From: Thermobaculum terrenum ATCC BAA-798
GTDB taxonomy: Bacteria > Chloroflexota > Chloroflexia > Thermobaculales > Thermobaculaceae
Assembly (NCBI RefSeq): GCF_000025005.1
Contig: NC_013525.1
Span: forward strand, 434,001 to 498,000
Direction of reading: 5' to 3'
DNA: 64,000 nt
The translations under genes and the position numbers were made by a program. Every line of letters begins with the position of its first letter. The first letter of the stretch is position 1. Shown here in pieces: positions 10,271 to 30,210 of the stretch. A model generated the notes under the pieces. The model searched no databases. It saw only the letters and a list, made by a program, of their open reading frames with translations, and was not told where the DNA came from.

Positions 10271-11932
10271 CTAGCTTCTAACCTTTATAGCATCCTGTAC
10301 GAGGGATTGTAGTTGCCTGAGTGCCTCTACGAGTTCTCCTCGCAAGTGCACCCTGAGCACTCTTCTCCCCCTTCCCTTCAAGGCTTCGAAGTCTCCCAGA
10401 GCCTGAGCCCTCTTGAGAACGTTGAAGCTGTAAGGAACTCCTGGTATTGGCATGTCCTGGGGCTCATCGTAAGTTACCTGCAGGAACATGCCGTTATCTG
10501 CTCCGCCCTTATGTAGCTGCCCTGTGGAATGCAGGAATCGCGGTCCATAGCCAAAGGTAGTAGCTATCGTTAGTGCATCTCTTAGCTGGATTCTGGCTTC
10601 CTGTAGGGGCTTTTCGACCTCTGGATTGTAAGGCACATAAGCCATGATAGCCAGGTAGTCCCCTGCCTTTGCGCTGGATAGGAACGCTTCTAGCGCCCCT
10701 GCAAGAGTATGCCCTTGATATCCATACAGAGAGATCGAATCCTCGGTTATATCAGGCTCTGGCTCCGGCAGCTTGCCTGTGTTTTCGTACTCTTTCAGGA
10801 GGCGATTGGTGTTATCTTTGCTCTCCTGCACGTTGGGCTCATCGAATGGATTGATACCAAGTATGGCTCCTGCTATAGCTGTAGCTATCTCCCATCTCAG
10901 GAACTCTCCGCCCATATCAGTTGGACCTGCCAGGCGAAGTGTAACGACGGGGTGCCCGGCCTGGGCCAAGCTCTCGAGCTTTTGCCCCATTTCTTTGTCC
11001 TCAGGAGAGCCCATGTCTAGATGGACGAAGAGCCTATCATCCCCGTAGGAGCTGGGCTCACCTAAGGTCTCGCCCTCAACAGGTAGTATGCCTTTGCCTT
11101 CTTTCCCTGTGCTTTCGGCTATAAGTTGCTCTACCCAATAGCCGAAGGTGCCTATCCCAGGCGAAATCACCAGAGTGAGCTTGTCTCTGCCAGCTAGGGC
11201 CATCTCACCCATGATGGTGCCGAGCCACACTCCGGGGTTGTCCTTAGGCTCTACGTTAGGACCGCATTCCTTTGACATGTCCTGAGCTCTGTCCAGAAGC
11301 TTATCAATTGGAGCGCCAATGATAGCCCCAGGCACCAGGCCGAAGTAGGACAATGCGGAGTATCTACCGCCTATATCCTCTCGGTTCTCGAATACGGCCC
11401 TAAATCCCTTGTTTCTGCCTTCTTCTGCAAGCTTTGTCCCTGGATCTGTGATTGCTATGAAGTGCTTACCAGGGTCGCTTATCCCTAGCGAGCTAACCTT
11501 CTCCCAGAAGTACTTGAACTGCGAGACCGTCTCAATAGTTGTGCCGGATTTGCTGGCAACTATGAACAAGGTCTTTGCCAGATCTATCTTGTCCTCTACA
11601 GACTTGATAGTTGTACTGTCTGTAGTATCAAGTACGTGGAGTTCTGGGTACCCCTGTGCTGAGCCAAAGGTATGACGCAGCACGTCAGGAGCAAGGCTGC
11701 TGCCTCCCATGCCAAGAAGCACTGCATGGGTAAAACCTTCAGCTTTGAGCTCTTCTGCGAACTTTTGCAGGTTGGGGACCTCTTTGATCATCTCTGGAAT
11801 GACATCCAGCCAACCCAGCCTATTGCAGATCTTCTGCTGTACGGCTGGATCATCCTTCCAGATGCTGGCGTCATGTTGCCATAACCGCCTGCCGACCGAC
11901 TCCTGCTGGAATCGGTGGAGGCGGTCGGTTAT
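10271..11932 (-). CDS. pgi: Phosphoglucose isomerase domain, in -1 frame to tal (C-terminal half of a Tal-Pgi fusion)
   Basis: This frame encodes sugar-isomerase (SIS) motifs GMGGSSLAP and SKSGTTIET and ends with VRS. Homology does not begin at the first ATG (11791). In-frame sequence upstream of it (RLWQHDASIW, then KICNRLGWLDV) matches the linker and start of the isomerase part of known bifunctional transaldolase/isomerases. No ATG, GTG or TTG occurs in this frame between the tal stop and 11791, so an intact product needs a -1 shift from tal. The fused product would be 944 residues, in the range of single-ORF fusions in related bacteria. Alternatives are an authentic mutation or a sequencing error. 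Confidence 0.85.
   Translation of the reverse strand: MTDRLHRFQQESVGRRLWQHDASIWKDDPAVQQKICNRLGWLDVIPEMIKEVPNLQKFAEELKAEGFTHAVLLGMGGSSLAPDVLRHTFGSAQGYPELHVLDTTDSTTIKSVEDKIDLAKTLFIVASKSGTTIETVSQFKYFWEKVSSLGISDPGKHFIAITDPGTKLAEEGRNKGFRAVFENREDIGGRYSALSYFGLVPGAIIGAPIDKLLDRAQDMSKECGPNVEPKDNPGVWLGTIMGEMALAGRDKLTLVISPGIGTFGYWVEQLIAESTGKEGKGILPVEGETLGEPSSYGDDRLFVHLDMGSPEDKEMGQKLESLAQAGHPVVTLRLAGPTDMGGEFLRWEIATAIAGAILGINPFDEPNVQESKDNTNRLLKEYENTGKLPEPEPDITEDSISLYGYQGHTLAGALEAFLSSAKAGDYLAIMAYVPYNPEVEKPLQEARIQLRDALTIATTFGYGPRFLHSTGQLHKGGADNGMFLQVTYDEPQDMPIPGVPYSFNVLKRAQALGDFEALKGRGRRVLRVHLRGELVEALRQLQSLVQDAIKVRS
11884..11928 (-). promoter_or_regulatory. mRNA hairpin just downstream of the tal stop, candidate frameshift stimulator
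   Basis: On the minus strand CCGACCG pairs with CGGTCGG (11892-11928). After a single mismatch CTCC pairs with GGAG, giving 11 mostly G-C pairs and a 13-base loop. A competing 7-pair stem (ACCGCCT with AGGCGGT, 11884-11925) uses part of the same strand. The first stem begins 3 bases and the second 6 bases after the slippery heptamer. Confidence 0.55.
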
Positions 11933-13104
11933 TTTCCCTCGTAGGAGCCCAAATTAGCGAACTGCCTGTCTTTGAGTTCCGCCATCAGAGTCTCCCTCTT
12001 CTCGTTGATCACCTTGTCCAGGCTATCGAAGGAATCTGCAAAGAGCTTGACTCCATCTGCCTGGAGCTTGTCAGTTACTTCTTTCATGCTTATTCCAAGG
12101 CTCTCGAGCTTCTCGATCACAGCATACGCCTGGTCCAGATCCTTGTCGATGGTCCTGGCAACTTTGCCGTGATCCAGGAAAGCCTCTATAGTCTGTGGAG
12201 GCATAGTGTTGACCGTGTCGGGTCCGATGAGCTCTTCTACATACATGACGTCTCTGTATGCGGGGTTCTTAGTGCTCGTGCTGGCCCACAGAGGTCTTTG
12301 TACCCGTGCTCCTTTGGCTTTCAGGCTCTCCCACCTCTCACCTTGGAATTTCTTGAGGAAGTGCTGATAGGCTATACGCGCGTTAGCTATTGCCGCCTTT
12401 CCAAGTAGGCTCTCCAGTTCACTCTTCTCCTGGCTGTCCTGCTCAGATTCGATGAGCTTCTGGAGCCTCTTATCCACCTCTGTGTCGACTCGACTTACGA
12501 AGAAGCTGGCTACAGAAGCGATCTTATCTATGGGCTTGCCCTCAGATACTCTTTGCTCAAGACCTTCAAGATAGGCATCCATGACGCGCTCGTAGTAATC
12601 GATCGAGAATATGAGGGTGATATTGACGTTTATGCCCTCACTGATCAACTGCCTGATAGCAGGGATGCCCTGGTCGGTAGCGGGCACCTTTATGAAGATG
12701 TTCGGACGATCGATTGTTTGGAAGAACTTTCGGGCCTCAGCGATTGTACCCTCAGTATCGTAGGCCAGTTTGGGGTTGACCTCTATGCTGACGTAGCCAT
12801 CAAGCCCTCCTGTTTCATCATACACAGGCCGGAGGACATCAGCGGCCATGCGTATATCCTCCACAATCAGCCCTTCGTAGATCTCGGACTGGGAAGCTCC
12901 ATTCTGTACCAACTCCCTGAAGGCTTCATCGTACTCTTTCGAGCTAGAGATAGCCTTTTCGAATATGGTTGGGTTAGATGTCAAACCCCTTATGCCTTTA
13001 TCTATCAGGGATTGGAGCTCTCCGGACTTGATTATGTCTCTGGTGATGTAGTCTATCCATGGGCTCTGCCCTTGTTCGATAAGCTCATGTAGTCTAGTGC
13101 GCAT
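11929..13104 (-). CDS. tal: Transaldolase (N-terminal half of a Tal-Pgi fusion locus)
   Basis: The 391-residue protein has the transaldolase signature G-L-T-S-N-P-T-I-F-E-K-A near residue 40 and the Schiff-base lysine in FIKVPAT near 140. It transfers dihydroxyacetone units between sugar phosphates in the non-oxidative pentose phosphate pathway. It lies 22 bases after transketolase on the same strand. The stop codon follows a slippery heptamer and precedes a stable hairpin, so the gene probably yields both free transaldolase and a fusion with the isomerase. Confidence 0.93.
   Translation of the reverse strand: MRTRLHELIEQGQSPWIDYITRDIIKSGELQSLIDKGIRGLTSNPTIFEKAISSSKEYDEAFRELVQNGASQSEIYEGLIVEDIRMAADVLRPVYDETGGLDGYVSIEVNPKLAYDTEGTIAEARKFFQTIDRPNIFIKVPATDQGIPAIRQLISEGINVNITLIFSIDYYERVMDAYLEGLEQRVSEGKPIDKIASVASFFVSRVDTEVDKRLQKLIESEQDSQEKSELESLLGKAAIANARIAYQHFLKKFQGERWESLKAKGARVQRPLWASTSTKNPAYRDVMYVEELIGPDTVNTMPPQTIEAFLDHGKVARTIDKDLDQAYAVIEKLESLGISMKEVTDKLQADGVKLFADSFDSLDKVINEKRETLMAELKDRQFANLGSYEGK
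11932..11938 (-). promoter_or_regulatory. G GGA AAA slippery heptamer, candidate -1 frameshift site
   Basis: Reading the tal frame, the last codons are GAG GGA AAA followed at once by TAA. GGGAAAA fits the canonical X XXY YYZ pattern: both tRNAs can re-pair after slipping one base back. The -1 frame continues as ATA ACC GAC into the isomerase domain. Confidence 0.6.
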
Positions 13105-22771: not shown

Positions 22772-24190
22772 ATGACGGATGGTCGGTTCAGGATAGAAAG
22801 AGACTCCATGGGTGAGGTCAGGGTTCCAGCTGATGCTTACTATGGTGCGCAGACTCAGAGAGCGGTTGAGAACTTCCCGATAAGCGACCTGCGATTTCCG
22901 AGGAGATTTATCAAAGCTCTTGGACAGATCAAGATGGCTGCTGCCGAGGTGAACGCAGATCTTGGGCTGCTTGATCCTGAGATAGCAAGGGCAATAGTGC
23001 AGGCGGCTCAAGAGGTTATCGAGGGTAAGATGGACTCCCAGTTCGTGGTCGATATCTTTCAGACTGGTTCTGGGACTTCGACCAACATGAACGCTAATGA
23101 GGTGATTGCCAACCGGGCTATAGAGTTACTGGGAGGTGAGATTGGGACAAAGTCCCCAGTGCATCCCAATGATCACGTAAACTTGGGGCAAAGCTCCAAT
23201 GATGTTATCCCCACAGCCATTCATGTTTCTACGCTGTCAGCCATACAGGAGGATCTGGAGCCGGCACTGAGTGAGCTGTTAGCAGCTCTACGGGAGAAAT
23301 CTGTGGAGTTCATGCCTATCATCAAGACCGGCAGGACGCATCTGCAGGATGCTACTCCCATCCGTCTGGGCCAGGAGTTTGAAGGATACGCTGGCCAGGT
23401 GGAGAGGGCATTGCAGCGCCTATCCTATGCCAAGGCCGAGCTCTCTGAGGTGGCGCTTGGTGGTACAGCAGTGGGCACAGGAATAAACACTCATCCAGAG
23501 TTCGCACGCAGGGTGTGCGAAAAGCTCTCGCAGCTGAACGGCTTTGAGATCAGGGAAACGACGAACCACTTTCAGGCGCAGAGTTCGCTGGATGCCTGTG
23601 TGCTCACCAGCGGCGTACTCAAGACGATAGCCGTGAGCCTTATGAAGATCGCCAACGACATCAGGTGGTTGGGATCGGGCCCTAGGGCCGGGATCGGTGA
23701 ACTGGAGCTACCCGAGGTTCAGCCTGGCAGTTCTATAATGCCGGGGAAAGTGAATCCGGTGATAGCTGAGAGCCTGCTCATGGTGTGTGCACAGGTGATA
23801 GGTAGTGATGCTGTTGTGGCCACTGGCGGTCAGTGGGGCAACTTCGAGCTGAACACCATGATGCCTGTGGTAGCCTACAACCTACTACAATCGGTAGAGA
23901 TAATGGCTTCTGCCTCCAGCAACTTTGCGAGGAAGTGTGTCAGGGGGCTGAGAGCGACGGAGAGAGGCCCTCAGCTGGTGGAGCAAGGGCTGGCTATATG
24001 CACAGCCCTTGCTCCTGAGATAGGTTACGATGCTGCTGCCAAGATAGCGCAGGAAGCACATCGGACAGGCAGGACTATACGTGAGGTGGCTAGGGAGAGG
24101 ACACAGCTTTCAGACGAAGAGCTGGACCGGATACTCAACCCAGAGGTCATGACCGAGCCTGGCAGGAACATAGGTCCAGCTGGTGGTTAG
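22772..24190 (+). CDS. fumC: Fumarate hydratase, class II
   Basis: The 472-residue protein matches class II fumarase in length and motifs: GSGTSTNMNANEV near residue 98, the catalytic T-G-R-T-H near 190, and the signature GSSIMPGKVNP near 318 with the catalytic serine. It interconverts fumarate and malate in the TCA cycle. An AGGAGGGC site precedes the ATG. It is convergent with sppA across 26 bases without an obvious hairpin. Confidence 0.96.
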   Translation: MTDGRFRIERDSMGEVRVPADAYYGAQTQRAVENFPISDLRFPRRFIKALGQIKMAAAEVNADLGLLDPEIARAIVQAAQEVIEGKMDSQFVVDIFQTGSGTSTNMNANEVIANRAIELLGGEIGTKSPVHPNDHVNLGQSSNDVIPTAIHVSTLSAIQEDLEPALSELLAALREKSVEFMPIIKTGRTHLQDATPIRLGQEFEGYAGQVERALQRLSYAKAELSEVALGGTAVGTGINTHPEFARRVCEKLSQLNGFEIRETTNHFQAQSSLDACVLTSGVLKTIAVSLMKIANDIRWLGSGPRAGIGELELPEVQPGSSIMPGKVNPVIAESLLMVCAQVIGSDAVVATGGQWGNFELNTMMPVVAYNLLQSVEIMASASSNFARKCVRGLRATERGPQLVEQGLAICTALAPEIGYDAAAKIAQEAHRTGRTIREVARERTQLSDEELDRILNPEVMTEPGRNIGPAGG

Positions 24191-28650: not shown

Positions 28651-30144
28651 ATGAGCGAGGAGAGGCAGGAAAGATCTAGCAGTTTGCTTACAAGAAGGCA
28701 GGCGCTCAAGGCAATAGGTATGGGAGCCGTGGGGATTGCCCTGGCGGCATGTGGTGGCGGGGCTGGCTCCACGCCGACAGCTCCCGTTGGTGGTCAGGTA
28801 AGTACCCCTACCAGTAGTCCTCAACCATCGCCGACCACCGCACCTTCGCCGAGCGCTTCGCCCGGTGGGAAGCCGACCGTGGCCCCAACTCCCCTTCCTC
28901 CTACGCCTGTCGTGCAGGAAATAGGAAGGGGGACTGAGAAAGTTATCTTCTGGCATGGTCTTGGCGGTGCAGATGGGGAGACTATGCAGGTCCTGCTGCA
29001 GAAGTACACCAAAGAGAAAGGAATCGCTGTTAGGTCTGAGACCTACGACTGGGGCCTGTTCTACCAGAAGCTTCCGACCTCTATAATTGCGGGCACACCA
29101 CCTGACATGGCGATCATGCACGAATGGGCCATGGCCCAGTTTGGTACGCAGGGGGTGCTGCAATCGGCCGATGACCTATTCTTCAACGCTGGTATTCTAG
29201 ATAAGAGCGACTACAACGAGGAGATTCTGAAGAAGATCACTATAGATGGTGTTGCCTATGGTGTTCCCTGGGACAACCACGGCTGGGGACTCTGGTACAA
29301 CACGAAGCTTATAAAGGATGCCGGCTTGGATCCGAACAAGCTTCCTAAGAACGGGCAGGAGTACCTGGAGTGGTGCTATAAGCTCACTACTGATGAAAAC
29401 GGCAAGCATCCGGATGAGAACGGGTTCAACCCCAAGAAAGTTGCCGTGTACGCAACGCACCCTTCCTGGCTGAGGCCCACACTGCTGTCCACGATCTGGC
29501 AGTTCGGTGGAGAGGTGTTTGACCCTGTGAAGAAGAAGGCTTCGTTGGATAGCGAGAACTGCATCAAGGCTGTCCAGTACTGGGTTGACCTGGTCCACGA
29601 GCATAGGGTAGCTGCTCCCACAGGCGCTGGCACTACATCGCCAGCCGACCTGTATGCCAATAACAGGCTTGTTCTGATGTGGGAGGGCAGCTGGATGCTA
29701 AACTTCTTCAAGGATAGGCCTAAGCTTCTGCCACCTGTTACCAAGGCTGCATCCTTGCCCTCTCTGTCCGATGGCACTCAGGCTGCCTGGATGAGCGCTC
29801 ACATATTCGTAATCCCCAATGGTATAGAGGGTGATCGTCTTGAGAGAGCTAAAAACCTGATCAAGTGGTTGGAGGATCACAACGCTGAGTGGGCAGACTC
29901 CGGTCAGGTGCCTGCCAAATTGTCTGTACAGAACAGCGGTATTATCCAGAAGCTCTGGTCTGTGAGTGCTTTCGCCAAGGAGTTCCAGACTATCGGACGC
30001 ACTGAACCACAGCATGTGGCCATAACCGAGATACAGGCCCAGTATGAACCAGCGTTTGATGCTGCATTGAATAAGGTGATGTCGGTCAAGGATGCCTTGA
30101 CTCAGGCCAATCGCAGGATTCAGGATATTTTGGATCGCTACTAG
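28651..30144 (+). CDS. Sugar ABC transporter substrate-binding lipoprotein (family 1)
   Basis: The open frame reaches 28525 but ATG 28651 is preferred: AGGAGG lies 10 bases upstream and it gives a proper signal. The 497-residue product starts with a Tat-like twin arginine (T-R-R-Q-A-L-K, Arg15-16) and a lipobox with Cys34, then a Ser/Thr/Pro linker of about 60 residues and a family-1 sugar-binding fold. It captures an oligosaccharide outside the cell. Two matching permeases and a GH2 enzyme follow. Confidence 0.9.
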   Translation: MSEERQERSSSLLTRRQALKAIGMGAVGIALAACGGGAGSTPTAPVGGQVSTPTSSPQPSPTTAPSPSASPGGKPTVAPTPLPPTPVVQEIGRGTEKVIFWHGLGGADGETMQVLLQKYTKEKGIAVRSETYDWGLFYQKLPTSIIAGTPPDMAIMHEWAMAQFGTQGVLQSADDLFFNAGILDKSDYNEEILKKITIDGVAYGVPWDNHGWGLWYNTKLIKDAGLDPNKLPKNGQEYLEWCYKLTTDENGKHPDENGFNPKKVAVYATHPSWLRPTLLSTIWQFGGEVFDPVKKKASLDSENCIKAVQYWVDLVHEHRVAAPTGAGTTSPADLYANNRLVLMWEGSWMLNFFKDRPKLLPPVTKAASLPSLSDGTQAAWMSAHIFVIPNGIEGDRLERAKNLIKWLEDHNAEWADSGQVPAKLSVQNSGIIQKLWSVSAFAKEFQTIGRTEPQHVAITEIQAQYEPAFDAALNKVMSVKDALTQANRRIQDILDRY

Positions 30145-30162
30145 TTTGGTCTTGACTTTGGG

Positions 30163-30192
30163 CAGGAGAGGGGCCTTCGGGCCCTTCTCCTG
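30163..30192 (+). other. Intercistronic UUCG hairpin between binding protein and permease
   Basis: CAGGAGAGGGGCC pairs with GGCCCTTCTCCTG (13 pairs, one G-U) around a TTCG tetraloop. There is no T run after it. Such structures usually protect the 3' end of the upstream message and set a high binding-protein to permease ratio. Confidence 0.7.
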
Positions 30193-30210
30193 GCGTCAGG
30201 AGGTCTGCAT

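Follow-up and report, generated by a model that had tools for sequence, protein, structure and literature searches.

A putative programmed -1 frameshift at the junction of the transaldolase and glucose-6-phosphate isomerase genes of Thermobaculum terrenum

Known frameshift systems and the tal/pgi gene pair

To our knowledge, few bacterial genes are established cases of -1 ribosomal frameshifting once mobile elements, phages, dnaX and a small number of others are set aside. The dnaX gene resembles the tal/pgi junction described here in having a slippery heptamer, a hairpin at about 5 nt and two products that share their N-terminus. The likeness is closer still for the dnaX genes of the reversed form, in which the zero-frame stop directly follows the shift site and the shift leads to the long product (PMC5009743). 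The differences are that tal is another gene, that the heptamer is G_GGA_AAA instead of the A_AAA_AAG of dnaX, and that no upstream Shine-Dalgarno (SD)-like stimulator was seen when the 30 nt before the heptamer, the positions at 10-14 nt included, were read by eye. Such a stimulator is an optional feature of frameshifting, as in dnaX, and is not required. The dnaX gene of T. terrenum itself was located, and the stretch of it that was examined has no run of six A, T or G.

In the transposases of the IS1 and IS3 families (IS911, IS3), a -1 shift fuses two ORFs, and G_GGA_AAA is among the heptamers used (PMC4066793). The tal and pgi ORFs, in contrast, encode enzymes of central metabolism, and their fusion exists in relatives as a single frame. 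The carboxysome gene csoS2 is a metabolic gene in which a -1 frameshift yields two product lengths, as is proposed here, but the shift gives its short product, whereas in tal/pgi it would give the long one (PMC5009743).

The tal/pgi pair is fused in some lineages of the phylum and split in others. The fused form is described by the family model PRK09533 (bifunctional transaldolase/phosphoglucose isomerase, NF007080), whose members normally occupy one frame; in T. terrenum the Tal and Pgi halves align to it across two frames, separated by a frame change and a stop. The split pairs examined in the Chloroflexota are adjacent, separate ORFs, as they are here, and begin their isomerase with ATG, GTG or TTG. 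The T. terrenum junction has no such start codon and carries a heptamer and a hairpin instead.

The tal/pgi junction of T. terrenum

The genome of T. terrenum, a bacterium of hot soil, was published for strain YNP1 (PMC3035366) and comprises 3,101,581 bases in two contigs. The window analysed here is a stretch of 64,000 nucleotides, on the minus strand of which transketolase, tal, pgi and zwf follow one another as a compact set of pentose-phosphate genes. The ATG of tal is preceded by a strong SD sequence, GGGAGGT, and the 3' end of the gene reads TAC GAG GGA AAA TAA. The features of the junction are collected in Table 1.

Table 1. Features at the tal/pgi junction (positions in the 64-kb window)
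Feature	Position	Strand	Remarks
tal	13104-11929	-	Zero-frame transaldolase, 391 aa, 44.1 kDa; PRK03343/TIGR00876 match
Upstream TAA of the -1 frame	11958-11956	-	-1 frame open from the next codon to 10271
Isomerase ORF, -1 frame	11955-10271	-	PRK09533 profile match; isomerase half of Tal-Pgi
Slippery heptamer G_GGA_AAA	11938-11932	-	X_XXY_YYZ in the tal reading frame
Proposed post-shift coding part of the isomerase	11932 to stop 10273-10271	-	-1 frame
AUA codon overlapping TAA (AUAA)	11932-11930	-	Rival non-canonical start; GAGG 4 nt upstream
Zero-frame stop TAA	11931-11929	-	Immediately 3' of GGGAAAA
Spacer UAACC	11931-11927	-	5 nt, between heptamer and stem
19-pair hairpin	11926-11883	-	Proposed frameshift stimulator, within isomerase coding sequence
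Left arm of hairpin	11926-11908	-	
Loop of hairpin	11907-11904	-	
Right arm of hairpin	11903-11883	-	
First ATG of the -1 frame	11791-11789	-	CCAGAG abuts; no SD at proper spacing
Assembly sequence at the junction			GGGAAAATAA

As had been predicted, the stop codon of tal directly follows a perfect slippery heptamer, and the -1 frame is open into a full isomerase. The zero and -1 frames overlap by about 24 bases (eight codons), and GGGAAAA sits at the end of this overlap, between the stops of the two frames. In a sample of 464 kb of chromosome 1, with 378 ORFs and 135,123 codons, GGGAAAA occurs in frame only twice. In-frame heptamers of the X_XXY_YYZ form number 333 in all (0.25% of codons), which puts the chance of finding one within an eight-codon overlap at about 2%. 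Heptamers of the type V_VVA_AAR, which includes G_GGA_AAA, were among the most efficient ones in E. coli (PMC4066793); the same paper also cites earlier work in which G_GGA_AAA was weak in that organism. The overlap holds another in-frame heptamer, T_TTG_GGC (11953-11947, minus strand), which lies about 20 nt from the hairpin and is unlikely to be relevant.

The PRK09533 model covers both sides of the break. Tal matches profile positions 3-389 (578 bits), and the -1 frame matches positions 394-948 with 728 bits, against a cut-off of 712. This division of the profile places the break at the heptamer. Both halves thus fit the model, and what is absent is the single continuous frame, interrupted as it is by the frame change and the TAA at 11931. 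Readthrough of the zero-frame stop was considered and rejected, as the continuation of that frame shows no homology and ends after a short distance. Transcriptional slippage was likewise ruled out, the runs being only 3 and 4 bases long.

The same short homopolymers are the weak point of 454 reads, which raises the question of whether GGGAAAA was misread or misassembled and the gene truly is one frame. We regard such an error as very unlikely: the assembly combined Sanger reads at 9.5x with 454 reads at 31.8x, was polished with Illumina data and has a stated error below 1 in 100,000 (PMC3035366), homopolymers of 3 and 4 bases are short, and an error would leave the hairpin unexplained.

Fused and split relatives, and the missing start codon

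The original prediction described single-chain Tal-Pgi fusions as known in related bacteria. All five same-family genomes that span the junction carry one open frame there (63-67% identical); a sixth member is a fragment that lacks the junction. Alignment with single-ORF homologues, proposed as a check, located the break at the heptamer, and the -1 frame lines up collinearly and without gaps with the relatives, starting at its first codons and continuing through the hairpin (KITDRLHRFQQESVGRRLWQHD versus, for example, KVGSRLKQFDDESFPRRLWQRD). It follows that the hairpin stretch codes for protein in the -1 frame and is not intergenic. The fused members of the family are without the heptamer/hairpin motif, and their orthologous stretches fold at -7 to -23 kcal/mol. 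A scan of the genome collection added one distant relative only.

Where the pair is naturally split, in neighbours from the class and the phylum, an ATG, GTG or TTG precedes the conserved isomerase region in every case examined (28/28), and the junction is often an ATGA or GTGA overlap (for example, in L028-L030, L096-L098 and L100). Two sets of candidates for further startless junctions were set aside. One split junction that seemed to have no start proved to contain an ATGA overlap, and nine genomes of one genus of the same phylum (L122-L130), tried as a second frameshift case, are ordinary in-frame splits: a TAG divides tal and pgi in frame, an SD-like stretch and an ATG follow within seven codons, and the arrangement is genus-wide in the sample. 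Among the split tal/pgi pairs examined, the T. terrenum junction is the exception in having no canonical start.

The original prediction that no in-frame start precedes the ATG at 11791 was borne out, for ATG, GTG and TTG are all absent from the -1 frame upstream of it. It was also right that starting at 11791 would lose conserved sequence. Such a start would cost 50 residues, six of which (D24, W28, R41, L42, G43 and W44) do not vary in an alignment of 18 sequences. The best alignments to isomerases of solved structure start at about query residue 40, which corresponds to residues 39-48 of those chains, so the upstream part of the query represents their N-terminal region. A gene call from the first ATG would thus begin the isomerase about 50 residues too late. 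A structure prediction for the isomerase, made from an alignment of two rows, was of low quality, with a mean pLDDT of 48.6, and played no part in the conclusions.

The isomerase could, in principle, be started without a canonical codon. By translational coupling, a ribosome ending tal would restart at the AUA of the AUAA overlap, using GAGG as its SD, and produce a separate isomerase of 553 residues. AUA is a very poor start codon in bacteria, and the spacing of 4 nt between GAGG and AUA is short; a restart would also explain neither the in-frame heptamer nor the hairpin that begins 5 nt behind the heptamer, and this hairpin should impede initiation. We therefore think such a restart unlikely, even though it would retain the whole conserved isomerase, would mimic the ATGA and GTGA stop/start overlaps of many split relatives, and finds some precedent in E. 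coli, where low-level AUA initiation was suspected downstream of G runs that resemble an SD (PMC4066793).

The hairpin downstream of the heptamer

The original prediction described an 11-pair hairpin and a competing 7-pair stem, beginning 3 and 6 bases downstream. The minimum-energy fold gives a different and stronger structure, a single stem of 19 pairs (8+2+9, with two 1-nt bulges and a 4-nt loop) at 5 nt. This distance is within the range of about 5-9 nt expected for -1 frameshifting; stimulators usually lie 5-8 nt downstream (PMC4066793). The hairpin has an energy of -32.4 kcal/mol (z = -6.8), which none of 200 shuffles equalled, and ranks second in stability among 42,634 windows taken from both strands of the 64-kb window. 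It is also the strongest structure behind any of the 333 in-frame heptamers of the 464-kb sample. The runner-up in that comparison (L111, 12351; -31.8) is the end of an ordinary gene, with a -1 extension that soon stops. The Rfam matches all lay below the gathering score. A mobile repeat was rejected, as the genome contains only one copy of the 66-nt segment.

Two other strong hairpins in the window are worth recording. One, of -32 kcal/mol (23971-24020, both strands), lies inside an ORF of 472 aa (22772-24190, plus strand), which is unusual for coding sequence; it is about 200 nt from the ORF end, and no slippery heptamer was noted with it. The other (30144-30200, plus strand; -31.7 to -33.9 kcal/mol) lies between co-directional genes 66 nt apart, with no T run after it.

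How often such a hairpin would arise by chance depends on what the junction is taken to be. For a protein-coding stretch, synonymous recodings matched its stability in 1/20,000 and 2/60,000 trials, or about 4 in 100,000. Terminators are common at gene ends, and taking the junction as the end of an ordinary gene gives 13/377, the share of gene ends here (3.4%) that are followed by hairpins of -30 kcal/mol or better; a strong hairpin behind a stop is thus not rare in itself. The conservation of the coding sequence favours the first figure over the second. Under either figure, the combination of heptamer and hairpin is unlikely to be a chance event.

The second figure is what gives some weight to the idea that tal simply ends here, with a terminator-like hairpin behind it, and that a 506-residue isomerase begins at 11791, the first canonical start. 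Here too the probability is very low. No intrinsic terminator was called and no T run follows the stem, which continues into ATGGCAAC; the hairpin lies within conserved isomerase coding sequence; and the start at 11791 drops the six invariant residues and has no properly spaced SD.

A different history would be the recent loss of one base, either in the type strain or in the lineage to which it belongs, that broke a fused gene and left the isomerase as a decaying or weakly expressed remnant. Single bases are commonly lost from short homopolymers such as those at the break, and the relatives do have the gene fused in a single frame. Chromosome 2 of T. terrenum (contig C2, 610165-610677; L042) also carries a second, unrelated isomerase gene that could help, for a glucose-6-phosphate isomerase of the cupin type (PF06560, 77.9 bits), so the Tal-Pgi isomerase need not be essential and its loss could be tolerated. 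We nevertheless consider a recent loss improbable. It needs a heptamer by chance together with an independent hairpin (about 3 to 5 in 100,000 recodings) at the exact spacing, and the isomerase frame is otherwise intact. A recent indel and a sequencing error alike leave the hairpin as a coincidence, which makes both unlikely.

Proposed mechanism

The reading we favour, with a probability of about 75%, is a programmed -1 ribosomal frameshift that would yield both Tal (44 kDa) and Tal-Pgi (105 kDa). Ribosomes finishing tal would reach the 19-pair hairpin with G_GGA_AAA in their P and A sites. Most of them would read TAA and release the transaldolase of 391 aa. In a fraction, the tRNA pair would slip one base back (GGG AAA), stimulated by the hairpin, and these ribosomes would continue with ATA ACC GAC CGC to make one Tal-Pgi chain, resembling the protein that the other family members encode in one frame. 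The computed fusion has 944 residues and 104.8 kDa, in agreement with the ~104 kDa predicted for it, whereas the transaldolase, predicted at 42 kDa, is computed at 44.1 kDa.

The computable parts of the frameshift prediction, namely the break at the heptamer, the fused family, the hairpin and the lack of a start codon, are sound, and the two products are what we infer from them. The occurrence of the shift, its rate and any benefit that two products might bring are likewise inferred. To call the arrangement a "stoichiometry switch" in central metabolism, as was done originally, exceeds the evidence.

At 67 °C the hairpin still has an energy of -16.6 kcal/mol. With the structure about half as stable at the hot growth temperature, the ratio of Tal to Tal-Pgi could shift with temperature. 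A tuned, possibly temperature-sensitive control over the tethering of the isomerase to transaldolase is nonetheless doubtful; if it existed, carbon could be steered between glycolysis and the pentose phosphate pathway.

Implications for the tal/pgi family

A survey of frameshifts that included Thermobaculum lists 158 predicted frame transitions, and its text makes no mention of transaldolase (PMC3711429). Our literature search, which covered titles and the openings of abstracts, returned no report of a transaldolase frameshift. As far as this search extends, the mechanism is a known one and tal/pgi, an unusual gene pair for it, is probably a new case. If the frameshift is real, the stoichiometry of the two enzyme activities would be set from a single message, and the T. 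terrenum junction would show that a fused gene can evolve in a third way, besides staying fused or splitting with a new start codon.
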